IMG/VR virus record: IMGVR_UViG_3300025086_000198
Span: 1-26,421 of that record
Length of the DNA: 26,421 nt
Direction: 5' to 3' (one strand)
Source of the DNA: a virus
In this document: positions 1 to 23,404 of the stretch, in pieces
Position numbering within the stretch: the stretch's first letter is position 1
Layout of the letters: each line of letters opens with the position of its first letter
Made by a program: the position numbers and the translations under genes
Notes under the pieces: generated by a model
Database searches by the model: none
What the model was told of the DNA's origin: nothing
The model's input: only the letters and a program-made list of their open reading frames with translations

Positions 1-1482
1 ACCACCCTCTGGATTCTTACTACGATAGTAGAATACACCCGTCTGCTCATATATATCGTGGAGGTCCAGTGGCTGCAGCTCCCCTGCCTTACCTAGCTGG
101 ACGTTTTCCAACCCTTCGATATCAATAATCAAGCCGTCGGGTTTTGCCTTGGCTATAGCCTGCTGAAGCTTTAGGTGTGTCAGCTGCAACATGTCTGCAA
201 ACCCCACGCAGCTATCTACCATAGACTTAGGCATGTTAGATATCAGGTTAGTTGCAATTACCGAATACGACAAGTGAGCACGAGAAATGTCGTGCATGTT
301 CTTTGGCGTGTTGGTCTGCTTACCGTAGTTGATCAGGTGGTCTGTACCAAGGATGTACGTACCCTTGTATACGCACGCGATCTCCATTGTGTGGGGGGTT
401 CTGTCGTACACAGTCCCTTTCTTCTCCTTGTACTCAAATCCCTGATAAAAGAAGTTGGAGTTACCATGACGATTGGACTTCTCCTCGAAGTGCATGCAGT
501 CTACGGTAAGGAACTCAAAGTCTAGAACCTCAACCAAATACCCAGAGTACTCATCTTTCTCTGGACCCCTGCTTGAGTAGGGGTTGTTTGGGTATCGATT
601 TGATGTGCTGCGCCTGGCCTTTTTAGAAATCTTCTTCAGATCCTCTTCAGTGAGATCGTCCCCAGCCAATCGCTTCAACTCATGAAGGGGCATCTCTTTA
701 ACGTGGCCAGCGTAAACCAGGTCGTCGAAGTTGGGGTCGTCAGTGTAGCTGTGAATGAAATTCACTGGGTCTACATACTGTAAGTCAATCCCATAGTTAG
801 GATCGTTCTTTCGCTTTACTACGGCCATACCCAACGCCGCGAGGTCATTAACGCAGCGACGAAAGGTGTTGTCCTCAAAGCTTGACCAAGACAGAGTCAT
901 GTCTGTGGCCACTTGAGCTGCAATTTCCGCGTCGGTCTTGATGTTGGTGTCCATCAAAATCTCTGCTTCTTCTTCAGTTTCGGGTATTTGATTGGCATCG
1001 ACCCCCATCATCGGACGACCCATCATCTCCTGCATAGACGCAAGCTCTTCGCGGAGCTTGACTTGATTGCGCTGGATGTTTTTCTTTTGATTCTTCTCGC
1101 TTGAAGAAAGCGGATCTACCGCCTCAATATTAGGGTAGGGGTTCCGAGAAAGAATTTTATTGACTACGATACGGACGAACTTCGGAAGGATTGGGACTGC
1201 AGTAAAGTCCAAGTTCATCAAGCTTCCGTCGCCGTTGTTCGGGTCGTTTTGGTTTAGCAACTGCTTGTATATAGCAGTATCCTGAGTCCCGTTAGCGTAA
1301 TCTCTGTTTCTAATAAAAACGCTCTTTCTCCCTCCAAACGTAGACTTATTGTCTTGTATGTTTCCCCACTGCCCTTCAATTGCTTTTGCGTACTGAAGCC
1401 CGTATTCACGGCTCAGTTTTGTTTCTTGAGGAGCAAGCGGATCTGGGAACCCCCCTACAGAATCGCTTTTATTGTTATACAT
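1..1482 (-). CDS. Portal protein, partial (3' end outside window)
   Basis: An uninterrupted minus-strand frame of 494 codons starts MYNNKSDSVGGFPDP and runs off the left edge. Portal proteins form the dodecameric ring at the capsid vertex through which DNA is packaged and ejected. The call rests on position directly downstream of the terminase large subunit and on the general character: a polar N-terminus, an acidic stretch after a Met-rich segment (MQEMMGRPMMG, about residues 128-138), then a long alpha/beta body containing LGTDHLINYG and a helical stretch. There is no short catalytic signature to check. The ATG at 1482 is the first in frame after the terminase stop, leaving a 35-base gap. 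The C-terminal crown/barrel region lies outside the window. Confidence 0.72.
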   Translation of the reverse strand, partial: MYNNKSDSVGGFPDPLAPQETKLSREYGLQYAKAIEGQWGNIQDNKSTFGGRKSVFIRNRDYANGTQDTAIYKQLLNQNDPNNGDGSLMNLDFTAVPILPKFVRIVVNKILSRNPYPNIEAVDPLSSSEKNQKKNIQRNQVKLREELASMQEMMGRPMMGVDANQIPETEEEAEILMDTNIKTDAEIAAQVATDMTLSWSSFEDNTFRRCVNDLAALGMAVVKRKNDPNYGIDLQYVDPVNFIHSYTDDPNFDDLVYAGHVKEMPLHELKRLAGDDLTEEDLKKISKKARRSTSNRYPNNPYSSRGPEKDEYSGYLVEVLDFEFLTVDCMHFEEKSNRHGNSNFFYQGFEYKEKKGTVYDRTPHTMEIACVYKGTYILGTDHLINYGKQTNTPKNMHDISRAHLSYSVIATNLISNMPKSMVDSCVGFADMLQLTHLKLQQAIAKAKPDGLIIDIEGLENVQLGKAGELQPLDLHDIYEQTGVFYYRSKNPEGG

Positions 1483-1517
1483 GCGGGGATATTGCTTATC
1501 CAGCAAATATAATATAT

Positions 1518-3635
1518 TCAGCCTCGCACTTTGTAGCGACGGAAGAACCGCTTTTCATCGAAGCTAGACTCCTCTTTCTTAGCCTTAACCTTTTGGGCAG
1601 CCAGCAAAGCCAAACCAGAACTAATCGTCAAGTCAAACTTGGTCCTGTTGTTTATATCGTACCCAATCCAGTCCTCTAAGGTGCGGTTGAAATACATCTT
1701 CCCCACCTCACCGCTTTCTCGATTTACCCCTACGTGTTCATGAACAAAAGCTTCTATAGCTTGTGCGTGAGACTGAATAACGTCTACTGAGTTCGACGGT
1801 ATACCCTTGGTTTTCACTTTGACTTTTGCGCTACCACTCATTAGGTGTTGTGGCCTATCCATCAAATAGCCGTCGTATCCACGCTGCTCAAAGTATCTGG
1901 CTATACCATACTTGTTGTTCTCAATCAAGATTGGATACCCATAGAACACCGCCGCCATCAATACATCTTCGTAAAAGATAGAGGCCAAAGGAGGACGCGA
2001 AGCATACTCGAGCACAAACATATTGGCGGGCACCTCCATGTTAAACTTATTGTACAGATGTAGCGCACCCTTGGATCCCCTTCCATCTACGGTGGCATCG
2101 AGGTCGTAGCTGTCAACACCCCCGCAACCAAGGTGGGTGTGAGGGGGTATTCTTTTTGTACGGTCGAAAGCCTTCTTGTTTCTGAGCTCTGGGGGTGGCA
2201 TCCAAGCTACTTTAAATCTACCCTTTGGGTCTGGGGTAAAGACCACCTCGCTGTCTTGAACCCCGCCCTTCCAAGAAAACTGCCCAGATACAACAGGGTT
2301 GGGGAACAGCGCGTCGTTGTGCTCTACCTGCTCGTATATCTGACCGATGTTAAACAAGCTCCCTTCGATACTGTCTCGAAAGGCTTCGTCAGTGGTAAAA
2401 GGAAACTGACGTATGACTTCGTTAAGTTCTGACGCGTCGTGCTTCAGACTCTCCCTTTCGTTTTTCAAGAACGTCTTTGCCCCCATATGGACGTACTCTC
2501 CGTCAATCCCCTCTATGTGTTCCTTGGGGTCTTCTACTATAGCCCTCCCGTACCGATCAAAAAACCCCTCTAGAGAATCGTAAGACGGGATGAAAAGCCT
2601 GTACAGCCCCGAACGGGTTCTACCATTCTTGTTCCTCTCCAGTGGATCCGAGTCCTCCCAAAGGTCCTTGTACTCGTTTCCGCCTTTTGACATGGGATTT
2701 ACGGTGCTCCCGACCATAGCCTTCCCCACGATTTTTCTTCCTACGATCAAACACGTCCTCTGAATCCTCCAAGCCTCTCTTATGTCGGTGGGTTTTTCCC
2801 ATTTCCCTGCCTCGTCTAAATACAGTAAGTGTAGTTTCTCTCCGTCGTAGGCGTTGTTCGTGGTGTTCTTCCAGTTGATTACCGTATTCAAGGCATCCCC
2901 CACTATGGCTGTCTTGTTGTTCTTCGTGATCTTCTTAGAGGGTTCACGGAAAGCCAGCTCCATGCGAGGGTTGGTAGTACCATCCTGTATGGGCTTGAAG
3001 AAGAAAGGGTACTTGCGGAACATGTTGACCACCTTCTTCATGAAGATGTTCTCCTGTGCGTCTTTACCCGTCTTGCTCTGTATCCCCACCAGCTTGTCCT
3101 TGACCTGGGTGGCTTCGTCAACTATGACGGAGGAGCATATGTTGGTGTATCCTGATCTACGGCACTTGGTATATAGCTGTCCAATACAACGAGGGTCGGC
3201 CTCACACGCAGCCAAATGTAAGAAGATATCTCTTTGGAACTCAAGGTAGTAGGGGTGGCCGATATCTAGCACCGACCACTGCAGCATCATGTAGTGACGC
3301 CCCGTGATGTATGTAGCGTCGCCTCGGTTATAAAACCAAACGCCCTCACGCCGACGGCGAAATTCTTCTTCGATATATGGACGAAACTTTTCTCGAAACT
3401 CCCGAGGCATCTCCGCCCACTCATCCATAGAACGAATACGCGATATCTCTTTGGGTAGATCAGCTCTCCGCCAGTACTGATCCTTGATGGGTAGATTCTG
3501 GTAGAGGATGTCTTTGACTTTAGGGGGCTTCGGAAGGACAATGAGAATGCCACCGATTTCGATGTGGTCACCACGCGTCCCGTTGGGACATATCCCCACA
3601 GCTTTTTCATCATGTCCTTCTATTTCAACTAACAT
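1518..3635 (-). CDS. terL: Terminase large subunit (packaging ATPase/nuclease)
   Basis: This 705-residue protein is the DNA-packaging motor. The N-terminal ATPase half has a deviant Walker A-like stretch near residues 157-168 (KCRRSGYTNICSS) and a clear Walker B segment LLYLDEAG at about 269-276. The C-terminal half fits an RNase H-like nuclease, with an acidic cluster CGGVDSYDLDAT (about 504-515) and a later segment around IENNKYGIARYFEQRGYDG (about 571-589). The deviant Walker A and the length resemble terminases of large Bacteroidota podoviruses more than the classical lambda or T4 forms; this is from memory of the families. It starts 9 bases after the upstream T9SS-type gene and is followed by the portal gene, the usual packaging order. 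No separate small-terminase gene is recognised with certainty. Confidence 0.9.
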   Translation of the reverse strand: MLVEIEGHDEKAVGICPNGTRGDHIEIGGILIVLPKPPKVKDILYQNLPIKDQYWRRADLPKEISRIRSMDEWAEMPREFREKFRPYIEEEFRRRREGVWFYNRGDATYITGRHYMMLQWSVLDIGHPYYLEFQRDIFLHLAACEADPRCIGQLYTKCRRSGYTNICSSVIVDEATQVKDKLVGIQSKTGKDAQENIFMKKVVNMFRKYPFFFKPIQDGTTNPRMELAFREPSKKITKNNKTAIVGDALNTVINWKNTTNNAYDGEKLHLLYLDEAGKWEKPTDIREAWRIQRTCLIVGRKIVGKAMVGSTVNPMSKGGNEYKDLWEDSDPLERNKNGRTRSGLYRLFIPSYDSLEGFFDRYGRAIVEDPKEHIEGIDGEYVHMGAKTFLKNERESLKHDASELNEVIRQFPFTTDEAFRDSIEGSLFNIGQIYEQVEHNDALFPNPVVSGQFSWKGGVQDSEVVFTPDPKGRFKVAWMPPPELRNKKAFDRTKRIPPHTHLGCGGVDSYDLDATVDGRGSKGALHLYNKFNMEVPANMFVLEYASRPPLASIFYEDVLMAAVFYGYPILIENNKYGIARYFEQRGYDGYLMDRPQHLMSGSAKVKVKTKGIPSNSVDVIQSHAQAIEAFVHEHVGVNRESGEVGKMYFNRTLEDWIGYDINNRTKFDLTISSGLALLAAQKVKAKKEESSFDEKRFFRRYKVRG

Positions 3636-3644
3636 AAATTCAAC

Positions 3645-4940
3645 TTACCTGACCACTGTGACGTGGCCGTTTATAACATACGAGGCACCAGCCATAGAGC
3701 ACTGCAGCTGATACGGGTATACGTCGTTAGGAACGTAGTATTCATCGCCACCCAACCAAACGGCAGAGGGGTCCTGACTCTCCCATACAACCTCACCAAA
3801 CCTAGAGTAGACCTTTAGCAACCAACTTATCCAGCAAGAGGCGTTGGTGGTCGCGCCCCAAACATCGTTTAACCCGTCGTTGTCTGGGGTAAACGAGTTG
3901 GGGAAGTATATCGGGCAGTCAGGGATGGGGTCTGCGCAAGGGAGACCAGTGTCGCACTCTACACTTATCAGGTCGTATTCATAAGAATATAAGGTGTCAT
4001 ATACGTACTCTGTTGACAGCAAGGTGTCCAGAACGTATATATAGGTTGTGTCGTATATATAACTATCCACCCAGGTTGTATCATATACATACTCAGTCTC
4101 ATAGATTGTATCTGTAAGATACTCAGTTAGATAGAGCGTGTCAGTAGAATATATATAGGTGGTGTCGTAGAAGTACCAATTGATCGCAACTGGAATTGTG
4201 TCGTATTCAAATAGAATAACAGTGTCTGGGGGTAGCTCTACGTATACGGTGTCTACAACAACCTCGGGTATCGGGCACCCGCAAGGGCCTACCACCACCC
4301 AGTTGTCCATCCAGTTATCGTCGTCGTATACACCATTCCCTGTTGTAGTCCCATCCCCATTGATACCTACCTCCGCCCAACCCCCGTCCTCAGCATACAC
4401 TGTCGGGCCGAAGCTGATCTGCCAGATTACGACCTGTACGCTCAGGTCTAAACTCAACCAATACTCTACACCCCCTTGAAGGTTGCAGTACAGTTGAGCG
4501 GCGAAAGGGCCGTCTACGCAATCGCTTTGATACTGATTGTATATAGGGAATGTTATGGTGTCCCCCGTGTAGTATGGTGGATCTATAGACTCGTCGTATA
4601 GGTTGGTCCAGTTCGTTGCACTCTCCATACTAGTGGCAGAGTACAGCCAGCCAGGGTGGTTGGATTCGTCAGATATAGAGAACCCAGAGGGGAAGTCCCA
4701 CCCTTGATTCATTGCGTTACAATCGCTGTCTAAAGCTTGAAACCCAAACTGAATTTCGGCCACGCCGTCTGGACCTGCTGTCCCCCCGCAGTTCTCGGTG
4801 TTGTTAAACGCGATGGTGATGTATCCCCCAATGAGGTCTACGTCAAGTATCTCTAAGTCACACTGTGCGTGTGACACAAAGGGGAAATAAAGAAGTAGTA
4901 GTAACGGGTTTAAAACTCGTCTGGGTGACCTATGTCGCAT
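3645..4940 (-). CDS. Secreted protein with T9SS type B (CHU_C, gliding-motility-associated) sorting domain
   Basis: This 431-residue protein has the architecture of a Bacteroidota T9SS cargo. Residues 1-25 are a signal peptide: basic MRHRSPRR, a Leu-rich core, and SHA before the likely cleavage ahead of QC. A Cys-containing, beta-rich domain of unknown function follows (about 26-226). Residues 227-335 are a low-complexity linker with about ten YDT(T/I/L)(Y/W)-like repeats spaced roughly ten residues apart. Residues 341-431 match the CHU_C pattern, with FPNSFTPDNDGLNDVWG, VYSRFGEVVWES, PNDVYPYQ and the terminal GHVTVVR. The family tail directs export across the outer membrane. The start is the only usable ATG and overlaps the upstream gene by 31 bases. 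Its place next to terL makes it a late gene. A role in surface modification, superinfection exclusion or receptor masking is inference; a virion protein reusing the fold is the alternative. Confidence 0.85.
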   Translation of the reverse strand: MRHRSPRRVLNPLLLLLYFPFVSHAQCDLEILDVDLIGGYITIAFNNTENCGGTAGPDGVAEIQFGFQALDSDCNAMNQGWDFPSGFSISDESNHPGWLYSATSMESATNWTNLYDESIDPPYYTGDTITFPIYNQYQSDCVDGPFAAQLYCNLQGGVEYWLSLDLSVQVVIWQISFGPTVYAEDGGWAEVGINGDGTTTGNGVYDDDNWMDNWVVVGPCGCPIPEVVVDTVYVELPPDTVILFEYDTIPVAINWYFYDTTYIYSTDTLYLTEYLTDTIYETEYVYDTTWVDSYIYDTTYIYVLDTLLSTEYVYDTLYSYEYDLISVECDTGLPCADPIPDCPIYFPNSFTPDNDGLNDVWGATTNASCWISWLLKVYSRFGEVVWESQDPSAVWLGGDEYYVPNDVYPYQLQCSMAGASYVINGHVTVVR

Positions 4941-5215
4941 GCCCTGCCAAAATCTAGATCGATGTACAGTGGTGTCTTTTCGCCCACATAGGCATCGATA
5001 ACATTGAACTCTAAATATTCTCGAGCGTCTTCTGGAGTCATATCCTCTTTTTTGAAGAGATGCTCAATCATTCTATTGATGTCGTAAACTGCAACAGGGT
5101 TTGGCCCTTCAGTAATACCTATTAAAGCCGAGTCAAACCCATCAGCCAAGAGGCACTCGTTTTCCTCTAGCAACTCCATGAGCCTGTCGTATTGAAGTGT
5201 GTCGTCTACTTTCAT
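4910..5215 (-). CDS. Conserved small phage protein, unknown function
   Basis: This 101-residue acidic protein has the segments VYDINRMIEHLFKKEDMT, PEDAREYLEFNVIDAYVGEKTP and a Cys near the end. The combination of an EDAxEYxxFNVxxAYVGExTP motif following DINRMIEHL resembles a small protein that recurs in many environmental phage genomes, with no known function that I can name. It begins with an ATGA overlap on the upstream gene (5212-5215), implying translational coupling, and its 3' end overlaps the signal-peptide start of the T9SS-type gene. That it is a real gene is well supported; function is open. Confidence 0.8.
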   Translation of the reverse strand: MKVDDTLQYDRLMELLEENECLLADGFDSALIGITEGPNPVAVYDINRMIEHLFKKEDMTPEDAREYLEFNVIDAYVGEKTPLYIDLDFGRACDIGHPDEF

Positions 5216-5505
5216 TTTTTACTAAATTTTTCTGCGAAGCCCCCAGTGTAGTCTTTGTCATCGGACACTCCGTTTCCCATTGTAAGGTCCTTCATCATCT
5301 GCTCTAGTCTCTGCCTCTCTAACAAAAGTTCTTTACAGTCCACGGCTGTCTGCTTGATGGACTGCAACTCCGCCTTCCTTGCGCTCCCGTTCACTTCGGA
5401 GTCTACAGGTCTTTTGATCTCTTCGATCATATTGTCTATGGCGATCTCCATGCTCCCCATCAATCGCTTCGCTGCATCCAGCGTAGTAAACTTTTTAGAC
5501 GGCAT
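5212..5505 (-). CDS. Small helical protein, unknown (possible small-terminase or scaffold position)
   Basis: This 97-residue protein is predicted to be nearly all helix, with a coiled-coil-like central part (IKQTAVDCKELLLERQRLEQMMKDL split over residues about 50-75) and a charged tail ending KFSKK. It starts at ATG 5505, overlapping the co-chaperonin stop by 11 bases, and ends in an ATGA overlap with the next gene. Helical oligomerising proteins a few genes ahead of terL can be small terminases, but no helix-turn-helix is visible, so this is only a possibility. Unknown function is the safe reading. Confidence 0.72.
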   Translation of the reverse strand: MPSKKFTTLDAAKRLMGSMEIAIDNMIEEIKRPVDSEVNGSARKAELQSIKQTAVDCKELLLERQRLEQMMKDLTMGNGVSDDKDYTGGFAEKFSKK

Positions 5506-6070
5506 AGAGCAAGTCTTGAGTGCGGGTTCTGAAGTACTCTTTGTCGTTGGCCTTGAAGGTGTAGTCCATGTTCTTTCTGAAACCGACAGTGTCCCCTACT
5601 TTCAGTCCTAGATCCTCTAAGTCTTTACTCGGGGACGCTACAACACCAGTCGTCCTAACCTTGTCTTTGAAGCTAACCACATCGAACATGGCGCTTTCCA
5701 CTTCTTCTTCAAAGGCGGGCTCTAGAATACTCCATCCGTCAAGCGGCATGAGGTCATCCTTGCCTTTGGGTTTGTAAGCATAGGCATGACTGTTGACCGC
5801 CACCTTCGGGTCAAAGCTGACCACGTAGTGATCTTTGTAGTCAGCAAACGGCATGCCCCCGTTGATTACTACGTTGTGATGGAAGTAGAGTGTGTCGCCA
5901 GGCTTTACAGGGGTGTCGAACTTGAGGGGGGTATGCACCACCTCACCTTCGTTCACCCTGTGTTTAAACTCGTCGAACTTAGTCTCCATATATATTTTCT
6001 GATCGCCCAACGCGACCTCGTCGTGAAAAAGCTTCGGGAGCTTTACGACAAAGTAGTAAAGTAGTTTCAT
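5495..6070 (-). CDS. GroES-like co-chaperonin with two tandem Hsp10 domains
   Basis: This 191-residue protein appears to carry two GroES-type beta-barrels. The first half contains PVKPGDTLYFHHNVV (about residues 54-68). The second half repeats the pattern from GWSILEPAFEEE to the end, with GLKVGDTVGFRKN, then NDKEYFRTRTQDLLYAV, closely following the GroES C-terminal pattern (vGDkVlf... yl.lre.DILAv). Hsp10 proteins are about 95 residues, so the length fits a duplication. Phage co-chaperonins such as T4 gp31 cap host GroEL so that the capsid protein folds, and a late-operon position agrees with that role. It starts at ATG 6070, two bases after the stop of the upstream gene. The N-terminal repeat is more divergent than the C-terminal one. 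Confidence 0.75.
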   Translation of the reverse strand: MKLLYYFVVKLPKLFHDEVALGDQKIYMETKFDEFKHRVNEGEVVHTPLKFDTPVKPGDTLYFHHNVVINGGMPFADYKDHYVVSFDPKVAVNSHAYAYKPKGKDDLMPLDGWSILEPAFEEEVESAMFDVVSFKDKVRTTGVVASPSKDLEDLGLKVGDTVGFRKNMDYTFKANDKEYFRTRTQDLLYAV

Positions 6071-6311: not shown

Positions 6312-6652
6312 CAATTTAATTTTTCGGGGGAGTCCAAGTCGTCAAACAAATCCCTCCACCAATTTTCGCTTTCGTATTCTTCGTCCTCGTCAGGGTACTG
6401 GTTTTCTTCAAAAGGACCCTCGTAAGAGAACCTCAAGAAGTCCAAAGCTTCAGAAAGAATGTCTTCGTTTTCAACGTCAACAGAGAACACCGCCTTTAGT
6501 ATCGGCTCCCCAAACGAATCGTAATCTATTACGCCAGTAAGCATGATGTTTACAGCGTCCCCCTTCATACCAAACGCATGTGTTAACGCATCTAACTCGA
6601 TGTGCAGGATTTGTATTGCGTGCAAGAACTTGTCTGTATGTTCGCTATCCAT
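6311..6652 (-). CDS. Acidic small protein, unknown
   Basis: This 113-residue acidic protein starts MDSEHTDKFLHAIQILHIEL and ends with a very acidic tail (QYPDEDEEYESENWWRDL and on). The frame stays open upstream for 25 codons, but that extension would lie inside the divergent gene. The ATG at 6652 is therefore preferred, and it overlaps the ATG of the plus-strand gene at 6651 (shared CATG). The N-terminal half reads as an alpha/beta domain (VNIMLTGVIDYD ... LKAVFSVDVENED). Function is not recognised. Confidence 0.68.
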   Translation of the reverse strand: MDSEHTDKFLHAIQILHIELDALTHAFGMKGDAVNIMLTGVIDYDSFGEPILKAVFSVDVENEDILSEALDFLRFSYEGPFEENQYPDEDEEYESENWWRDLFDDLDSPEKLN

Positions 6653-7073
6653 GCCTAAGAGTAAGGTAAGTAAAAAGAAGATGTTTAGGGAGTTCTCACC
6701 TCTCCCACAAAAGTACGTAAACAGCAATCACCTCAAGTATTTAAAGCTGAGGATGATAGAGGTTGAGGAGGCCAACGAGATCTACAGGAAAGAGCTTTTG
6801 TTTTTGCTGTGGGGGTATGACCTAGAGTTCTTTACCCTTGACTATGCATCCAAAGATTACGGTATGCGCAAGAATCACCTTGGAGATAGGATAGTATACC
6901 CATTGGTAAACGAGGGGTGGTTGTACAAGCACTTCGATAAGATGACCCCCAGCAACGAGAGGGAGGATCACCTCTTCCGTGAAGAAACCAAGTTCAACTA
7001 CAGGGTGAGGTACGCACTAACGCAGAAAGCCAGGCTGATGGTGCAGCGCTTTTATAGAGCGCTAGAGCCATGA
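6651..7073 (+). CDS. Winged helix-turn-helix protein (MarR-like), putative transcription regulator
   Basis: This 140-residue basic protein is the only plus-strand gene inside the late minus-strand block. Residues about 40-95 look like a winged helix: a helix EIYRKELLFLLWGYDLEFF, then DYASKDYGMRKNHLGDRI (candidate recognition helix), a turn into EGWLYKHFDK, and a wing-like stretch followed by RYALTQKARLMVQRFYR, like the ALTxKG(R)xLV tail of MarR-family wings. It begins MPKSKVSKKKM, and ATG 6651 overlaps the divergent start codon; ATG 6681 is an alternative. Its stop (7071-7073) abuts the convergent stop of the DUF5675 gene with no gap. The opposite direction suggests separate, perhaps regulatory, expression; that is inference. 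Confidence 0.7.
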   Translation: MPKSKVSKKKMFREFSPLPQKYVNSNHLKYLKLRMIEVEEANEIYRKELLFLLWGYDLEFFTLDYASKDYGMRKNHLGDRIVYPLVNEGWLYKHFDKMTPSNEREDHLFREETKFNYRVRYALTQKARLMVQRFYRALEP

Positions 7074-8414: not shown

Positions 8415-8549
8415 TTATCCGCTGCAGGATTCGCAGTCCTCTGGGGAGTCTATGTTACAAGATATCTCCCCGCTCTTTAGCTTCTCCGCTGTTTCTTCCA
8501 ACTTCTTCTTGTCAAGGAATGTCGGGGTATCCCATTCTTCTTCTTTCAT
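8415..8549 (-). CDS. 44-residue Cys-tailed small protein
   Basis: This short frame reads MKEEEWDTPTFLDKKKLEET, then a helical Lys/Glu stretch and a tail SCNIDSPEDCESCSG with three Cys (C31, C39, C42). Its ATG overlaps the stop of the 627-residue upstream gene (ATGA at 8546-8549), the same coupling used throughout this arm. It fills the otherwise empty gap before the beta-rich gene, so it is probably real despite its size. The Cys tail could bind a metal or form disulfides. Function unknown. Confidence 0.6.
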   Translation of the reverse strand: MKEEEWDTPTFLDKKKLEETAEKLKSGEISCNIDSPEDCESCSG

Positions 8550-10429
8550 ACCGTTCTGTATCCTGGTTTCTTTTTCTTTTTGACCTTGATCTTGCCCCCG
8601 TACTTAAAGTCTTGAGTGGCAGCTGCTGATCCAGTCCCGAGTAGAACTGCGCTGAGCTTGTTCATTTGATCCGCCATAATCTTGGCGTTGTTAACCCCAC
8701 TTGCATTTGTTCTAGTAGGGTCGAAGAGCTCAAGGATTCTCAAAGAACCAGGATCACGCATAATAGCCTGGTCCGCAAACCTGCGCTTCTTCTCAGGGGT
8801 GTAGTATTCGTCAAAGAACCTAAGGATGTCTGACTCAGTGACATCGGTAGACCGAGCAGCGATCACCCCCTTGTCAATCATGTCCTGCTTCAGCTCAGCC
8901 AACATAGGGGTTCTTTCAACTATCCTGTCAGGGAATACACTACGACCTGAAAAACCACCAAGACCACCAGTTGGAGACCCGCCTCTAGCTCTCTCAAAGT
9001 ACTTCAGGGCGTCTTCATAGTCTTCAATTTCCGTTACACCACTCGTCCTGCCACTGACTTTCCTTGGAACCATTTCACCCAGTGCTACAGCAACCTGTTC
9101 CAAATTCTCCATCTCGTCAGCGGTCGTCATGTGACTCTTCAGTATTTCTGGGAATCTTTGCAGTGCGTGCTCAAACTCATGCTCCCTTATGATGCGAGCA
9201 GCTTGCGGATTCACAAGTCTTTGACCTCCGAGGTAAATTTCCCTGTTGCCATAACTATAATAAGCATTAGGATCTAAAAATCCTGTCGTGCTGATTTCAA
9301 CCTCATTCTGCATGCTTTGCACCTCCCGCTCCAGAGCATCTCTTTCCATTCGAGTCTGATCTGGATCCCCGAATTTTTCTGATGTCTCTCGTCTGTACTG
9401 CCGCTCTAGGCGCTTCATCTCTCTCTGCTTGTCCGCAATCATAGTCTTACGTGCAGCAATTTGATCGGCATCAAGGAACTGATGACGACCACCTAGGTTT
9501 TCGTAATTAAGTGCGGTCTGTTGAATGCGCTGATTGGTTTTTGTCAGCCCCTCGGTAACCAACAGTGAGTTCGGGTCCACCTTGCCATTTACCATGGCAC
9601 CCTGAATTTTCAAGAGGTCGTCGGCAACCATAGCGCCCTGATTTAAGCCTGACGCATCAGGACCTATAGCCCTCAACGCGGCCTGTATCTCTTGGAAACT
9701 CAAGGCGCTGCCAGTTCTCTTTTGCATGTCGGCAATGAAGTCGTCGTAGAAGGCCTGCGTCTGTTCTGCAATTCGCCCTCTTTGACGCTGCTGCAAAACA
9801 GGGTCAGTCAAAAACTCCTGTTGCCTAGCGATGTGCTGGTCCACCATCTCACGACCAGTCTGATTCAAGGTCTGGAGGTTAATAGTTCCAGCTAGTACCT
9901 CGGGCTCCGTTCGGTTTACGTAGCTCAAAACATCCTCCCCCTTCTGTGCCACCCGATCTCCTACGCGCTGTCCTAACCTATTGAGCTGTCTGCCTGCATA
10001 GGTGCTAGGGATGAACGGGAGGGCAGCCTCAATACCCATATCTATTGGGGTGAACGCCATGGCAGATGCTATCTGTCCGATGGGGGAGGTCAACATATTG
10101 TCCTGTTGGTACTCAGCCGCTGCCTGCGGGTCGCCCTGCAATCCAGGCGGCATCGTAAACGCGAGGTTAGGGTTGATGCCTCGGGCAATGGCGTCCCTTC
10201 TGCGCATCTCTCTATTATACCGCTCTTCGTCTATCGGGGTCGCGGGACCGATAGTTGGGCCTATGGGCCTTGTGTCTGGCAGGGGCTGTAGCACTGGCTG
10301 AAACTGCAGCTCTGGCATAAAGACAGACGTAGCGTCTGAGGGGGCGGTATACGGGGGGTCCCCATGAACACCACCGTGGAAGTATTTATTTACGTATACC
10401 CCTGGCTTCCGTTTCTTCTTACTCCTCAT
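8546..10429 (-). CDS. Large internal/ejected virion protein candidate with HExxH zincin motif and GGK tail
   Basis: This is a 627-residue protein. The N-terminus is basic (MRSKKKRKPGVYVNKYFHGG), followed by Pro-rich and Ala/Gly-rich stretches (about 112-150). A charged helical region (about 325-375) is followed by IIREHEFEHALQ at about 413-424, a zincin HExxH motif (H417, E418, H421); acidic residues in EMENLEQ (about 439-445) could give a third ligand. The C-terminus has YGGKIKVKKKKK, related to the tails of the next two proteins. A large, late, multidomain protein with a peptidase motif fits phage proteins packaged in the head and ejected with the DNA (polyvalent-type), but this is inference. 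It overlaps the upstream stop by ATGA. Confidence 0.72.
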   Translation of the reverse strand: MRSKKKRKPGVYVNKYFHGGVHGDPPYTAPSDATSVFMPELQFQPVLQPLPDTRPIGPTIGPATPIDEERYNREMRRRDAIARGINPNLAFTMPPGLQGDPQAAAEYQQDNMLTSPIGQIASAMAFTPIDMGIEAALPFIPSTYAGRQLNRLGQRVGDRVAQKGEDVLSYVNRTEPEVLAGTINLQTLNQTGREMVDQHIARQQEFLTDPVLQQRQRGRIAEQTQAFYDDFIADMQKRTGSALSFQEIQAALRAIGPDASGLNQGAMVADDLLKIQGAMVNGKVDPNSLLVTEGLTKTNQRIQQTALNYENLGGRHQFLDADQIAARKTMIADKQREMKRLERQYRRETSEKFGDPDQTRMERDALEREVQSMQNEVEISTTGFLDPNAYYSYGNREIYLGGQRLVNPQAARIIREHEFEHALQRFPEILKSHMTTADEMENLEQVAVALGEMVPRKVSGRTSGVTEIEDYEDALKYFERARGGSPTGGLGGFSGRSVFPDRIVERTPMLAELKQDMIDKGVIAARSTDVTESDILRFFDEYYTPEKKRRFADQAIMRDPGSLRILELFDPTRTNASGVNNAKIMADQMNKLSAVLLGTGSAAATQDFKYGGKIKVKKKKKPGYRTV

Positions 10430-10458
10430 TTCTTCAGGATCTTAAACTTCCCACCCCT
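10425..10458. repeat. 34-bp direct repeat, copy 1 (gene junction)
   Basis: This 34-bp block is identical to 11573-11606. It spans the ATGA overlap of two genes and encodes on the minus strand the last nine residues GGKFKILKK plus the stop and start of the neighbours. Perfect identity over 34 bases, including third codon positions, exceeds what protein constraint alone would require. Confidence 0.92.
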
Positions 10459-11577
10459 TTTGTAGAAAAGGAATCTAGGATCATCCATGTTCATAAGAGC
10501 AACCTCCACTTTATCTTCATACCAAGCATCCGTAAGATCGGATATCATTAGGCCGTCAGCTTCTCTCAAATTGACATCAGGAAAAGCAAATTGTAGATCG
10601 TCTAATTGTGGGGCGCGTATACCTAAGTGATACGCTGCCTCTTCGATGTCCCCTGATAAACCACCTGGAATATCTTCCTTCCCGCCTATTTGTTTAACAA
10701 CTCCACGATCTTTTAGCTTCAAGTATCTACTTAGACCTTTTGCACTGTGATCACCAGAACTAGAAAGTCTTAGTCCCTGCTCTTTCATAGCTTGGTTCAG
10801 GGCAGAGGTCATCAAACTCGAAGCCCCGCTACCGACGAGCTGATCTCTCAAGGGTGTGGCCGTACTCTTCTCGAACGGGAAATCACCCACTCGAGTCATG
10901 ACTGTCACCATATTGCCTTCATCCATCAGGGCGCCAGCCTTACCTCTACTATGAAATCCCATTGATCCTGTTGGGATCACGGTACCGTCAGCCAATCTAA
11001 GGTTTACGTCTACCCCGCCACTTGATGTTTTCACATCACCAGCTGCATCGGTAAATTCCCTGAGCGGTCCCCCCTTCAACTCCATGGTTCCTCCAATGTC
11101 TTTCTTGAGCTGCATAGGGGCGGATTTCGGGTTGGCTTGATAATCTGCCAACAGTTCATTGGCCCGCTTTGTGATCTTTTGCCAGATGGGTTCATCTACA
11201 ATGCGAGTCAATGGGGCAATCTTACGTCCCGCTGGGACTGCTGCGGCAGCCAGAGAGGCTGCGTTTTGCCCCTCTGCGGCTGCACTAGCAAGGTAAGCTG
11301 CGCCTGCTGGTGCGGTAAGTGCCAGGGGTAAATCCATAGCCGTTCTGTTTCTATCGACTTCCGCTCGTGTTGGGATGCGCATCGGGTAGTCCGATCCAAA
11401 ACCAGCTGCTCTCAATCCAGCAAGTGGAGTACTGGCTGCATACATAATATCTCCGATCACGTCCGCGTAGGATCTTTCTGGCGCTTGACTAAACCCTCCC
11501 TGACTTATTGCAGGAATTTTAGACAAAGCTTCTTGCGGAGTAATGCTAGGTCCAGTGGGTGACTTTAGTATTCTCAT
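10426..11577 (-). CDS. Internal virion protein candidate with GGKFKILKK tail
   Basis: This 383-residue protein has a Pro/Ala-rich N-terminal third with an Ala-rich hydrophobic stretch (about 82-115), then an alpha/beta region. Around residues 258-296 (SALNQAMKEQGLRLSSSGDH and the following Leu-rich helix) it faintly resembles the C-terminal half of acetyltransferase-like domains found in phage polyvalent proteins; this is weak. It ends FLFYKRGGKFKILKK, a tail identical over nine residues to that of the next protein. The start and stop junctions both carry the ATGA overlap and lie in a 34-bp repeated sequence. Function is not established; a DNA-ejection cargo is the leading inference. Confidence 0.66.
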   Translation of the reverse strand: MRILKSPTGPSITPQEALSKIPAISQGGFSQAPERSYADVIGDIMYAASTPLAGLRAAGFGSDYPMRIPTRAEVDRNRTAMDLPLALTAPAGAAYLASAAAEGQNAASLAAAAVPAGRKIAPLTRIVDEPIWQKITKRANELLADYQANPKSAPMQLKKDIGGTMELKGGPLREFTDAAGDVKTSSGGVDVNLRLADGTVIPTGSMGFHSRGKAGALMDEGNMVTVMTRVGDFPFEKSTATPLRDQLVGSGASSLMTSALNQAMKEQGLRLSSSGDHSAKGLSRYLKLKDRGVVKQIGGKEDIPGGLSGDIEEAAYHLGIRAPQLDDLQFAFPDVNLREADGLMISDLTDAWYEDKVEVALMNMDDPRFLFYKRGGKFKILKK

Positions 11578-11606
11578 TTCTTCAGGATCTTAAACTTCCC
11601 ACCCCT
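11573..11606. repeat. 34-bp direct repeat, copy 2 (gene junction)
   Basis: This is the second copy of the junction repeat, again centred on the ATGA overlap and the GGKFKILKK tail. The two copies are 1148 bp apart and bracket the 383-residue gene, so recombination between them would precisely delete or exchange that gene while leaving both neighbours in frame. Confidence 0.92.
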
Positions 11607-13004
11607 ATCGTATCTAATCTTACGGTTTGGGGACAGCAGCATAAAAGGAACATCGTTCTCCATCAACCCCGTCTTCAACACATTAAACGCTTGCCGTGCA
11701 GAAACCCCAAACTCATCTTCCCCTTGAAACGCACCAGCCCCCGTACCAGAAGATGGCTTCAGCATGTCTGCCCTAGTTATAGGCATCCCCTTGGTGTTTA
11801 TGATCTTGAAGCTGGGTCTTCGCGGATCATACAGGTCATCCATTAGCGACACGTCTGTATCAGACATTTTTAGATAAGGTTCGTCACCAAAATCGAAATC
11901 ATCATAGCCAATATCTCCCGCCTCTTCAGCCGCCATCATCTGATTCAAGTCGTCCGTCCCTTTCTTCTCATTAATGTCTATCCCGAACCCTTTTCGGTTT
12001 GCTTCAACGTCTGTTCCAGAGAAACTCACAATTCGATCTTTACCCTCATATGTACCTGAGGATTCCTGAGAGAGACTACGGATAATATCACCCTCTTCAA
12101 TATCTCCAGACTTCACCATGATTTCATCCCCATCTCTAATCACTCTGTACTGTTGAGTATGCACGGGGGTTCGCACGAGGGGTACGTCTTTCGCCATCCG
12201 TTGCATCTGGTCAGAGGGAACCAAACCAGTTTTACCTGCACTCCCGTGACCTTGGTGCAAAAGCGCTGACATAACTGCCCGCTCCGATGGCGTACCCTCT
12301 ACGAGCTCCATCCCCCTCTTGTCAGCTATGCTGATAGGGGGTCCTCCTAGAGGGTTCCCGCTCCTGTACTCAAGGCCAGCCCGACGAGGATCTGGGACAT
12401 ATCCAGTATATCCAAGGTCTCTTGCCCTACCCGACACAAATACGTCGGCAGCGGCATCATCTGACGCCATATTCCTTGCAAAAGCCTCTTGAGGGTTTGC
12501 TTCTCTCGCGACCTCCATGATGGCTTGGTCGTAAGCCTGTGGGTTTGTGTTCCTGAATTGCAGCGCGTCTTGGTTCAACCTGTCCAGGTCCCCCATAATT
12601 TTTCTACGCTGCTCGTTCTTCTCTATCATGCCCAACTTAGACATGTTGACCTTGCGTAACTCGTCAACACTCTTGCGCAACCTCTTGCTCATCGCACTAG
12701 GGAGAATCATAAACAGCGGTGCCAGCGCGGCTTCGACGTATCTACCGTCTTTTGCTGCCTCTGCAGAGGCGATGAGCGCCCCGATATCCCCTAATGGAGT
12801 AAAATTCTCTAAGAATTGGTCACTTGTACTAGGCAATCCCGCTGGATCCACATTATAAACACTCCTGTTCGGGTCATATGCGGGGATTTGGTCCTCTACA
12901 GACACTGGGCCACGGTCACCCAGCCCCAATAGCCTACCTAGAAGGCTGTTGTCTACGGTTTGACGCAAACTCCTGACGGGATCTCCTGATCTACGTACAT
13001 GCAT
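11574..13004 (-). CDS. First late-arm protein, internal virion candidate with GGKFKILKK tail
   Basis: This 476-residue protein is the first gene of the minus-strand arm. It starts MHVRRSGDPVRSLRQTVDNS, with the ATG at 13004 immediately after the divergent control region. A moderately hydrophobic helix lies at about 88-105 (EAALAPLFMILPSAMSKR), followed by a charged helical segment and then a mixed domain with acidic stretches (for example DIGYDDFDFGDEP). It ends KIRYDRGGKFKILKK. No catalytic motif is recognised. Its tail and its junction sequence are shared with the next gene, and it most likely belongs to the same set of packaged proteins. Confidence 0.66.
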   Translation of the reverse strand: MHVRRSGDPVRSLRQTVDNSLLGRLLGLGDRGPVSVEDQIPAYDPNRSVYNVDPAGLPSTSDQFLENFTPLGDIGALIASAEAAKDGRYVEAALAPLFMILPSAMSKRLRKSVDELRKVNMSKLGMIEKNEQRRKIMGDLDRLNQDALQFRNTNPQAYDQAIMEVAREANPQEAFARNMASDDAAADVFVSGRARDLGYTGYVPDPRRAGLEYRSGNPLGGPPISIADKRGMELVEGTPSERAVMSALLHQGHGSAGKTGLVPSDQMQRMAKDVPLVRTPVHTQQYRVIRDGDEIMVKSGDIEEGDIIRSLSQESSGTYEGKDRIVSFSGTDVEANRKGFGIDINEKKGTDDLNQMMAAEEAGDIGYDDFDFGDEPYLKMSDTDVSLMDDLYDPRRPSFKIINTKGMPITRADMLKPSSGTGAGAFQGEDEFGVSARQAFNVLKTGLMENDVPFMLLSPNRKIRYDRGGKFKILKK

Positions 13005-18959: not shown

Positions 18960-19032
18960 GCCCACGTAGCTCAGGGGATAGAGCAACTGCCTTCTAAGCA
19001 GTCGGTCGCAGGTTCGAGTCCTGCCGTGGGTA
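18960..19032 (+). tRNA. tRNA-Arg (anticodon TCT)
   Basis: A complete 73-base cloverleaf can be drawn. The acceptor is GCCCACG/CGTGGGT, the D stem GCTC/GAGC, the anticodon arm ACTGC-CTTCTAA-GCAGT with TCT at 18993-18995, the variable loop CGGTC, and the T arm GCAGG-TTCGAGT-CCTGC, with discriminator A. CCA is not encoded. It reads AGA codons. It lies between two small early genes, on the same strand. Confidence 0.97.
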
Positions 19033-19057
19033 CTAACACAGACCACAGACAAAAAAA

Positions 19058-19888: not shown

Positions 19889-20046
19889 CACAAGCACACC
19901 TCGACGAACTACAGTCTCGCATTGACGAGCTGTATGATAGGCTTCTCGATGAGCCTGAGTGCAGGGCGACAGCTATGCTGTTGTCTGCATGCATCGACAA
20001 CTACAATGCAAAACTCAGACTCCTATATCAACCATGCGCCAACTAA
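19885..20046 (+). CDS. 53-residue small helical protein
   Basis: The protein is MTQAHLDELQSRIDELYDRL followed by a second helix (ECRATAMLLSACIDNYNAKL) and a short tail. It looks like a helical hairpin. The start overlaps the previous stop (ATGA), and the end overlaps the sigma-factor start by 13 bases, so it is probably coupled to that gene. A small partner or anti-sigma role is conceivable from position alone. Confidence 0.55.
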   Translation: MTQAHLDELQSRIDELYDRLLDEPECRATAMLLSACIDNYNAKLRLLYQPCAN

Positions 20047-20900
20047 AAATCACACAGAAACTCACCAACCGCGACTGCAAATCCTTAGAAAAATATCTCA
20101 ATGACGTATCACCCATCGGACTCATCGACTCCCAAAGAGAAGTTGAGTTAGCCATCGCTATCAAGCGTGGTGACAAGCGTGCAGAAGAAGAGTTGGTGAG
20201 GGCGAACCTTCGCTTCGTAGTGTCCGTTGCCAAGCAGTATCAGGGGCAGGGGCTGAGGCTCGAAGACCTCATCAACGAGGGCAACCTCGGACTCATCAAG
20301 GCGGCAGGCAGGTTCGACCATACCAAGGGGTTCAAGTTCATCTCTTATGCAGTGTGGTGGATACGTCAGCACATCTTGCAAGGGCTGGCACAGCAAGCCC
20401 GTACCATACGTGTTCCGCAAAACAAGATTGCCACCATCAATAAGATGAGGGCGGCCACCTCTGACTTAATGCAGCTGCACGAACGCAAGCCTACGATCGA
20501 CGAACTCGCCGACTACATCGGTGTCACCCAACAAGAGATTGAGGTTTGCATGGCTTTGCAGAATCGCCCACCCTCTCTCGACGCTCCGATAGGTAACGAC
20601 GTAGACACGAGCGTCATGTCTGAAGTCCTGCCTGACAAAGACAGCCCTCCCCCTGATTGGGAGATGGACTTGATGTCCCTTCGGCAGGACATAGCAGATG
20701 TCTTGGATACGGTAACTCCACGAGAGGCAATGGTCTTGAAGCTGATGTTCGGGATTGACGTGCAGTATGCACACAGCCTGGACGAGATATCAGAGATGCT
20801 TGAGGTCAGCCGTGAGCGAGTGCGACAAATCAAAGACAGAGCCTTGCAGAGACTGCGCCGAGAGTTGGTCAACTCCAAACTGAAAAGCCACCTTGGTTAG
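20034..20900 (+). CDS. rpoD: RpoD-like primary sigma-70 factor (Bacteroidota type)
   Basis: The 288-residue protein is a full-length group 1/2 sigma factor. It begins MRQLKITQKLTNRD, the distinctive start of Bacteroidota RpoD. Region 2 has RANLRFVVSVAKQYQGQGL, DLINEGNLGLIKAAGRF and FKFISYAVWWIRQHILQGL. Region 3 follows, with ERKPTIDELADYIGVTQ. Region 4 has LKLMFGIDVQY and the HTH SLDEISEMLEVSRERVRQIK. The length equals the short Bacteroidota form. It should bind RNA polymerase core and read promoters of the host type or a modified set. The ATG at 20034 matches the family start. Differences from a typical host sequence, such as WEMDL and a long acidic/Pro linker (DKDSPPPDW), suggest a diverged copy. 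It was probably acquired from a host; that is inference. Confidence 0.95.
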   Translation: MRQLKITQKLTNRDCKSLEKYLNDVSPIGLIDSQREVELAIAIKRGDKRAEEELVRANLRFVVSVAKQYQGQGLRLEDLINEGNLGLIKAAGRFDHTKGFKFISYAVWWIRQHILQGLAQQARTIRVPQNKIATINKMRAATSDLMQLHERKPTIDELADYIGVTQQEIEVCMALQNRPPSLDAPIGNDVDTSVMSEVLPDKDSPPPDWEMDLMSLRQDIADVLDTVTPREAMVLKLMFGIDVQYAHSLDEISEMLEVSRERVRQIKDRALQRLRRELVNSKLKSHLG

Positions 20901-22402: not shown

Positions 22403-22766
22403 AGTCAGATTCCATCTTGCTCGAGGGCAGAACTACCAGCGATGGCAAGTGAAGCGCGGAGAGATGGTGCAATACTATGACCCTGAAGACGTGATGCTGG
22501 AGATGTGCGGCGCTACACTGCGCAACCAACGCAAGGCGGCAGAGCGGATATGTGACGGGGCCAACAAAAGTGTTTGTGCTTGGGTGGAGTGTGACGATAT
22601 AAACGTCGTGCCGTGCGTGGCAAACTCAGTGCCACCCGTAAAAGACTTCGCTCACTACAATCCCAAGCGTAGACCGTATTGGCACAACACCTTGAAAGAG
22701 AACATAGACAACAAGCAGTTCAATCGCCTCGCTACATACGGGAGGCTAATCGTGATACCAAAATGA
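22392..22766 (+). CDS. Conserved phage protein, unknown function
   Basis: This 124-residue protein has QRWQVKRGEMVQYYDPEDVM, a Cys-containing middle (MCGATLRNQRKAAERICDGA, then KSVCAWVECDDINV) and an unusual tail RPYWHNTLKENIDNKQFNRL. The sequence of yyDP, CGAxLxNQxxxAxxIxxGxxKxVCAWVxC and HYNPxxxPYWH recurs in marine phage genomes. The two Cys-rich stretches may form a metal site. No function is known to me. It is coupled to the DnaA-like gene by ATGA. Confidence 0.72.
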   Translation: MKVKVRFHLARGQNYQRWQVKRGEMVQYYDPEDVMLEMCGATLRNQRKAAERICDGANKSVCAWVECDDINVVPCVANSVPPVKDFAHYNPKRRPYWHNTLKENIDNKQFNRLATYGRLIVIPK

Positions 22767-23404
22767 CAGAAGCACACACACCAGCGCAGAAGTTTCAGAT
22801 GGCGCTGGAAAGAGTAGAGAAGGAACGGAAGCGGATGAGGAAGATGGCCTCCACTATGCGGATGAGGACAGAGAGTTCAGACCACATCATGCAGGAGATC
22901 ATGGGGATTGTATGTGACGTATTCGGAGTGAGTGAAGAAGATGTGGTGGGTCGAACAAGACACCGAGAGGTGGTGGTTGCAAGACACACGTACTGCTTCT
23001 TGTGCTCCAAGCTAGACCCCATGGGTACGTTAAAGCGAGTGGGGATGAGCATAAATAGGGACCACAGCACCGTGCTACATGCCATCAAAAAGGTCAACGA
23101 CATGCGCCTTACTGACTACCGATACATGGCCATCTTCAAGATGTGCCTGATGCAGGTAGCCAACAGCAACAAGGATTTTATGGAGCGCATACAGTTTGAG
23201 CCAGACCAGATGGATGAAGTGGACCCCCACAAGACAGACCTCATTAAGGCACTCAACGCCCAACGGGTAGTGCAAGAGTTCATCTTGGCGTGGGATGAAT
23301 ATGAGTTGAAGAAAGAGTACGAAGACGACCAAGAAAACAAAGAGCAGTCGTTGATAGACAGATTGAGGGCAGTAAAAGACCTCGCAATTGAGAAAGGATT
23401 TTAA
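22763..23404 (+). CDS. DnaA domain IV-like DNA-binding protein without AAA+ domain
   Basis: The 213-residue protein has the DnaA C-terminal double-stranded DNA-binding fold at about residues 43-113. It contains IMGIVCDVFGVSEEDVVGRT, then RHREVVVARHTYCFLCSK and finally INRDHSTVLHAIKKV. The last segment corresponds to the DnaA box-reading signature GRDHTTVLHA. No Walker motifs are present; the flanks are charged helices. In bacteria this domain reads DnaA boxes at oriC, so this protein could mark a phage origin or compete with host DnaA. ATG 22763 overlaps the previous stop. It stands before the recombination and primase genes, a normal replication-module order. Confidence 0.85.
   Translation: MTEAHTPAQKFQMALERVEKERKRMRKMASTMRMRTESSDHIMQEIMGIVCDVFGVSEEDVVGRTRHREVVVARHTYCFLCSKLDPMGTLKRVGMSINRDHSTVLHAIKKVNDMRLTDYRYMAIFKMCLMQVANSNKDFMERIQFEPDQMDEVDPHKTDLIKALNAQRVVQEFILAWDEYELKKEYEDDQENKEQSLIDRLRAVKDLAIEKGF

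Follow-up and report, generated by a model that had tools for sequence, protein, structure and literature searches.

The data presented here support the reading that a gene lying inside the packaging and late operon of a marine Bacteroidota phage has the architecture of a T9SS type B cargo, in which a predicted signal peptide, a head domain and a DT-repeat stalk are followed by a C-terminal sorting domain (Table 1), as judged from sequence comparison and structural modelling. Based on the same comparisons, we consider it probable that the product of this gene is an accessory phage protein displayed outside the infected cell, and export of this cargo by the host T9SS is strongly predicted. The window, as we call the whole stretch of DNA analysed here, is 26,421 bases long and corresponds to the whole of its source virus record.

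Table 1. Position of the cargo gene, of its parts and of its neighbours in the window
Feature	Position	Strand	Remarks
Cargo gene	3645..4940	minus	ATG start, 431 aa; predicted T9SS type B cargo architecture
Predicted Sec signal peptide, residues 1-25	4866..4940	minus	Sequence inspection; cleavage before invariant QCDL
Head domain, residues 26-220 (mature 1-195)	4281..4865	minus	Beta-rich, paired cysteines, exchanged between phages
DT-repeat stalk	3906..4280	minus	Variable length; recombination breakpoint near its end (~aa 313)
C-terminal CHU_C / T9SS type B sorting domain	3648..3905	minus	PF13585 and TIGR04131 profiles; fold match
terL, large terminase	1518..3635	minus	phrog_6681, E 2.5e-202
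Portal protein	1..1506	minus	phrog_6547; cut by window end
g101, 101-aa gene	4910..5215	minus	phrog_13182; shares 31 nt with cargo start
g97, 97-aa conserved gene	5212..5505	minus	Directly precedes terL in L113 (empty site)
GroES-like co-chaperonin	5495..6070	minus	phrog_13932

Results

Genomic context of the cargo gene

The first-pass annotation had placed this gene between small late genes and terL with no strand given, and both the gene and its setting hold up, as a real ORF of 431 aa is read on the minus strand (4940..3645) and its neighbours could be matched to PHROG families. A chance ORF can be dismissed because homologues of the head are encoded in 83 IMG/VR contigs identified with a head profile (80 of which were kept), and because the head is under purifying selection, with dN/dS values of 0.04-0.12. 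The spacing between the end of the cargo gene and terL is 9 nt. No match to the cargo protein was found in PHROG, an absence that is also compatible with a virion protein, and a sequence search of the whole protein against the PDB also gave no match. A scan for promoters and terminators between window positions 3000 and 7600 returned sites no more numerous than those seen in shuffled sequences. The closest named relatives of terL are found in phages of Flavobacterium, Cellulophaga, Tenacibaculum, and Maribacter, and these relatives suggest that the host of the window phage is flavobacterial. An attempt at host assignment through terL in MAGs was discarded: phage contigs were binned with many unlike genomes, some of them archaeal, and for this reason binning was dropped as host evidence. 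We acknowledge that all the phage material used in our study is uncultivated, that the contigs are mostly fragments, and that hosts are deduced from relatives.

Other features of the window are also worth recording. The GroES-like protein (5495-6070, minus strand) is 191 aa long, about twice the usual GroES length, and matches Cpn10 in its last quarter only. A lone plus-strand ORF (6543-7073) lies within the minus-strand late operon, and its position and strand are kept in most related contigs. Three adjoining large ORFs on the minus strand (8546-10429, 10426-11577, and 11574-13004), which have no clear family matches, share similar basic tails (YGGKIKVKKKKKPGYRTV, KRGGKFKILKK, and DRGGKFKILKK), and a GGKFRILKK tail also terminates large ORFs in contigs L003 and L007. 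In the plus-strand half, the window encodes an RpoD-like sigma-70 factor (19959-20900); also on the plus strand are a protein with a DnaA C-terminal DNA-binding domain (22679-23404) and a tRNA-Arg(tct) (18960-19033).

Signal peptide, head and stalk

The cargo protein begins with MRHRSPRRVLNPLLLLLYFPFVSHAQ, directly followed by CDLE, and this N-terminus reads by inspection as a Sec signal peptide, in agreement with what had been claimed for it; the hydrophobic leader, present in the window copy, ends just before the invariant QCDL in all of the 31 homologues inspected. A lipoprotein reading of the invariant Cys was rejected on inspection, as the residue preceding it is Gln and not the Ala, Gly or Ser of a lipobox. 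The DT-repeat linker described in the first-pass annotation is likewise real, residues ~227-340 being rich in DT, and an extra domain of ~100 residues lies between head and stalk in some of the homologues (L038, L039, L040, and L043).

Conservation across 30 aligned homologues is highest in the head, where the QCDL, GFQA, HPGW, and WAE motifs are invariant. Of 62 heads, 35 have cysteines at both positions 116 and 127 and 27 have neither, with no head carrying one alone (the indel by which 116 is lost does not include position 127). Cysteines 176 and 177 are likewise paired (both in 18 heads, neither in 44), and the cysteine count is even in 55/62 heads, with the caveat that these heads are related and thus are not independent observations. 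Such pairing would fit, as an indirect indication, the formation of disulfides in an oxidising compartment, as occurs in exported proteins.

Although the core of an AlphaFold2 model of the head is usable (mean pLDDT 73.8, pTM 0.75; mostly beta, with residues 153-179 unreliable), Foldseek against the PDB returned no convincing match (best E 0.21), and the best VIA-align score (Z 6.2, to FlaF) was under match level. No enzyme or sugar-binding domain was recognised in the head using domain profiles, Foldseek against the PDB, and VIA-align. The lack of an identifiable fold in the head counts against the display reading. Foldseek searches in BFVD matched the head to A0A516LPX6 at 57% identity and, weakly, to A0A7S9STS8 (Virus NIOZ-UU157) at 20% identity.

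C-terminal domain

The first-pass annotation had staked its claim on a CHU_C match, and such a match was found, as the PF13585 profile aligns to residues 346-416 with 36.2 bits against a cut-off of 27 (E 6.7e-9), and reaches 40.7 bits in a six-frame search. Calling this a full CHU_C sorting domain was slightly generous, given that profile positions 3-73 of 86 are covered, even though the match itself is above the Pfam cut-off. The NCBIfam profile TIGR04131 ("T9SS type B sorting domain") does span its full length, over residues 345-431, with 32.9 bits against a cut-off of 35, a slight shortfall that counts against the display reading; among the relatives, scores for this profile are above the cut-off in L002 (42.9), L071 (39.3), and L039 (35.3), and just under it in L004 (34.7). 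Exactly one CHU_C gene above cut-off is present per record in 17/17 of the larger records. The full-length AlphaFold2 model is poor overall (mean pLDDT 58). In structural comparisons, the modelled C-terminal domain (CTD) matched PorZ (5m11; Z 8.4, 87 aligned, 2.8 A) in the top row and NucA (8glk_D; Z 8.2, 74 aligned, 2.2 A), values that would be weak if taken alone, as Z is near 8; other T9SS CTDs, namely those of mirolase (8qb1), RemZ (8gl8_D), and RgpB (7pq4), were matched lower down, among unrelated beta sandwiches.

Head and tail recombination

Sequence comparison indicates that the window copy has a head of the L002 type joined to a tail of the L004 type. Nucleotide identity to L002 is 88.7% in the head and 53.5% in the CTD, while the corresponding values for L004 are 65.6% and 73.5%, and the signal-peptide region is also L004-like (76% vs. 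49% for L002). A maximum chi-square analysis of 390 informative sites placed the breakpoint at about residue 313, where the stalk ends, with a chi2 of 116 against values of at most 19 in 1000 permutations. A comparable picture is given by L100, a lineage B contig: its signal peptide, head, and CTD are 100, 68, and 92% identical, respectively, to those of L035, and 50, 90, and 45% identical to those of L086, which belongs to lineage A. The signal peptide and CTD of L100 are B-type and, leaving aside the near-identical L099, its head shares 59-68% identity with the remaining B-type copies in the comparison. Head identity is 69% within lineage A and 68% between lineages A and B, whereas CTD identity is 77% within lineage B and 42% between A and B, and head types and CTD types are found in many combinations. 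Because heads are equally alike within and between lineages and tails are lineage-bound, the sequences argue that the head is exchanged as a cassette between phages and that the export parts remain with the lineage.

Distribution among phages and origin of the two domains

Searching with the whole protein identified homologues of the cargo in 46 viral contigs, and the head was found in four phage lineages, where it occupies four genomic sites. The check for homologues at the same locus, proposed in the first-pass annotation, showed that related phages carry them, in the order groES-g97-(g101)-cargo-terL-portal in some 30 contigs, with a further gene of 238-246 aa sometimes located between the cargo gene and terL (L013 and L086). 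The cargo gene is found among structural-region genes in lineage B (terL ~47-53% identical), beside a DUF5675 gene in lineage C (terL 20%), and, in phages of ~110 kb, beside the gene for a secreted M43 metalloprotease and near that for a fasciclin-domain protein. In these ~110-kb phages (L071:4476-7950), the metalloprotease directly precedes the type B cargo, and the fasciclin-domain protein is near. In L113, a related phage contig with no cargo gene, the g97 match ends at 2427 and the terL match starts at 2439, and no CHU_C domain was found when phages elemoA_7-9A and MW202828 were searched for it; because these three lack a CHU_C gene, we classify the cargo gene as accessory. No cultured phage with the same head was found in INPHARED, where a search with the CTD identified three records only, all uncultured.

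In prokaryotes, no relative of the head could be confirmed in 84,980 genomes using a pattern scan of limited reach, and in about 1,230 Bacteroidota genomes searched by profile there was none, with the exception of one doubtful contig end. In this sole bacterial match, at the end of G455:C47, head residues 1-140 are continued by a PAF-AH-like hydrolase, the head breaks off mid-domain, and GC content steps from 0.49 to 0.37 to 0.25. Due to these GC steps and the mid-domain break, this sequence was rejected as a host copy of the head and deemed a probable misassembly; the region (L151:18270-20000) consists of host DNA, the head fragment, and a low-GC PAF-AH-like gene. At the search sensitivity used, the head appears to be phage-specific. 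A profile of the phage CTD, on the other hand, had matches in 299/299 of the Flavobacteriales genomes sampled, the best host CTDs being 41-47% identical to those of the phages, and the CTD is probably of host origin.

A second T9SS-linked module in related phages

A T9SS type A domain was found above cut-off in 6/17 records, in a protein of ~800-900 aa carried in addition to the type B cargo. In the records examined (L039, L162, and L163), this type A cargo is followed by a conserved secreted protein of ~344 aa, which has a signal peptide and a C-terminus that resembles that of an outer-membrane barrel (L162:672-3359 and 3356-4390; L163:2045-4956; L039:12416-15990; L172-L251). Genes for relatives of this ~344-aa protein occur in 394 viral contigs; of 80 such contigs compared, 76 also match the type A cargo. 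Searches of Pfam, PHROG, NCBIfam, and the PDB gave no match of note for this protein, and profile comparison argued against it being a SprF-like shuttle. The length of the type A cargo varies among marine phages, and in L162 (672-960) its ORF is continuous in frame with a basic protein at the N-terminus (phrog_7595, with a weak match to phrog_220, minor head/DNA pilot), so that the cargo and a small head-region protein may there be fused or overlapping.

Discussion

Type B cargo needs cognate PorP/SprF-like shuttles for secretion, and some "orphan" type B cargo shares a shuttle encoded elsewhere (PMC12618676). PorP/SprF-like proteins are also believed to anchor type B cargo at the cell surface (PMC9143113). 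A shuttle gene close by is a frequent trait of type B cargo but does not define it. When we searched for such a shuttle (PF11751), none was found near the cargo or elsewhere in the phage in any of 17 records, while 3-8 genes each were detected in 4/4 host genomes used as a control. Because no phage PF11751 gene was found, the phage cargo should act as an orphan that borrows a host shuttle, and a borrowed shuttle would explain why CTDs follow lineage. Alternatively, the link between CTD and lineage may come from the places at which recombination occurs, and not from a fit to the shuttle. In the route that we propose, the cargo protein would be exported by Sec, its CTD would be recognised by the host T9SS translocon, and a host PorP/SprF-like shuttle would carry it to the surface or the medium late in infection, so that the head would be presented on its DT stalk outside the infected cell. 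The lineage-bound CTD would in this case match the shuttle of the host, and the head would be traded between phages like an arms-race module, a pattern that points to a function at the surface in the contest of phages and hosts.

Gliding/T9SS adhesins may serve as phage receptors in this group of hosts (PMC13288928), and phage receptors within the gliding machinery have also been proposed (PMC7345892). Cargo that enters the T9SS pathway could mask or displace adhesin receptors of this kind. The role that we rate most likely, even if we advance it tentatively, is the exclusion of competing phages, with the head masking surface adhesins or receptors or competing for them. Superinfection blocking or receptor masking, both listed in the first-pass annotation, are possible, and the exchange of heads between phages fits them. 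Superinfection exclusion is often an early function, which counts against such a role since the cargo gene is in a late operon.

The main rival to surface display, which we regard as rather unlikely, is that the protein is exported by the T9SS but then shed, to act outside the cell in aggregation, as a decoy for phage or host factors, in polysaccharide binding, or in easing the spread of progeny. T9SS cargo may indeed be either released or anchored (PMC12618676), and the position of the gene in a late operon would suit a function near lysis, as would the secreted M43 metalloprotease and the fasciclin-domain protein be suitable company for a released effector in the ~110-kb phages. The type B cargo characterised to date, however, is surface-bound by PorP-like proteins (PMC9143113), and the head carries no recognised enzyme or sugar-binding domain. 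Quite improbable, in our opinion, is that this is a protein of the virion, whose head would be an ordinary structural or receptor-binding part and whose CHU_C-like end would be an Ig-like fold of the particle. Ig-like domains are common on phage particles, which counts in favour of a virion protein, as do the position of the gene among packaging genes (and, in lineage B, between structural-region genes of 478 and 244 aa and the genes after them) and the swapping of heads, typical of receptor-binding proteins. Such a protein would nonetheless be difficult to reconcile with a signal peptide in every homologue inspected, with paired cysteines, with a CHU_C domain above cut-off in 17/17 records and T9SS CTDs as top structural matches, with the lack of a PHROG match, and with related complete phages from which the gene is missing.

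The least probable of the readings considered is that the gene is a moron recently captured from a Flavobacteriales surface protein, with no phage-specific role. Type B CTDs are plentiful in hosts, and because of this the CTD is very probably host-derived originally; furthermore, at the host-like contig end of G455:C47, part of a head is joined to a PAF-AH-like hydrolase. That single match, however, resembles a misassembly, and it comes from one of ~1,230 Bacteroidota genomes by profile, no head having been confirmed by pattern scan. Because the head family is common to four phage lineages, where it is under purifying selection, and is essentially absent from host genomes at the sensitivity used, the earlier suggestion that a host gene was acquired through recombination is unlikely to hold as a recent event.

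Phage-encoded T9SS cargo is already known. Type A cargo was described by Bellas et al. (2020) in "Cryophage" (PMC7468147), where, like here, phage proteins with T9SS sorting domains vary between related phages; the Cryophage domains, however, are type A and are found on enzyme-like proteins (endoglucanase, GH39, PA14), while in our case a type B domain is joined to a head of its own family, the gene adjoins terL, and heads and tails are exchanged over four lineages. Going by their description, crAss-like cluster 2 phages, which also infect Bacteroidota, similarly have ORFs with T9SS sorting domains, located upstream of the head module, but these are gut phages and the ORFs were reported with BACON domains (PMC6949934). 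With host type B cargo, such as SprB and the Flavobacterium johnsoniae orphan substrates, the phage protein shares a signal peptide and a type B CTD (PMC12618676, PMC9143113), and with the orphan substrates also the lack of an adjacent PorP/SprF gene, these substrates borrowing a shuttle (PMC12618676). It differs from host cargo in being far smaller than SprB, in having a head absent from the hosts searched, and in being encoded in a phage late operon. The two proteins identified by Foldseek, A0A516LPX6 and A0A7S9STS8, are both viral, and the latter is annotated as "Gliding motility-associated C-terminal domain-containing protein", which denotes the same kind of CTD; both are database entries, for which our literature search found no functional study. 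In the open-access literature, our searches turned up neither a type B family with the present head nor any report of head/tail exchange.

Phages are not usually thought to use the dedicated outer-membrane secretion system of their host, and a recombining, conserved family seems to do so here, with a cargo gene inside the packaging operon and a shuttle that would be borrowed from the host. Phage use of the T9SS may also extend beyond the type B cargo gene, with the type A module more widespread in marine phages. It is conceivable, and we suggest it with reserve, that marine Bacteroidota phages share a modular display system in which a phage-specific head, exchanged as a cassette between unrelated lineages, a DT stalk, and a type B domain tuned to the PorP/SprF shuttle of the host would remodel the surface of the infected cell against competing phages. 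Such a system would lead to the prediction that the export domain follows the host and the head follows phage competition, and it opens to experiment the ways in which phages of a major marine phylum change the surface of the cells they infect.
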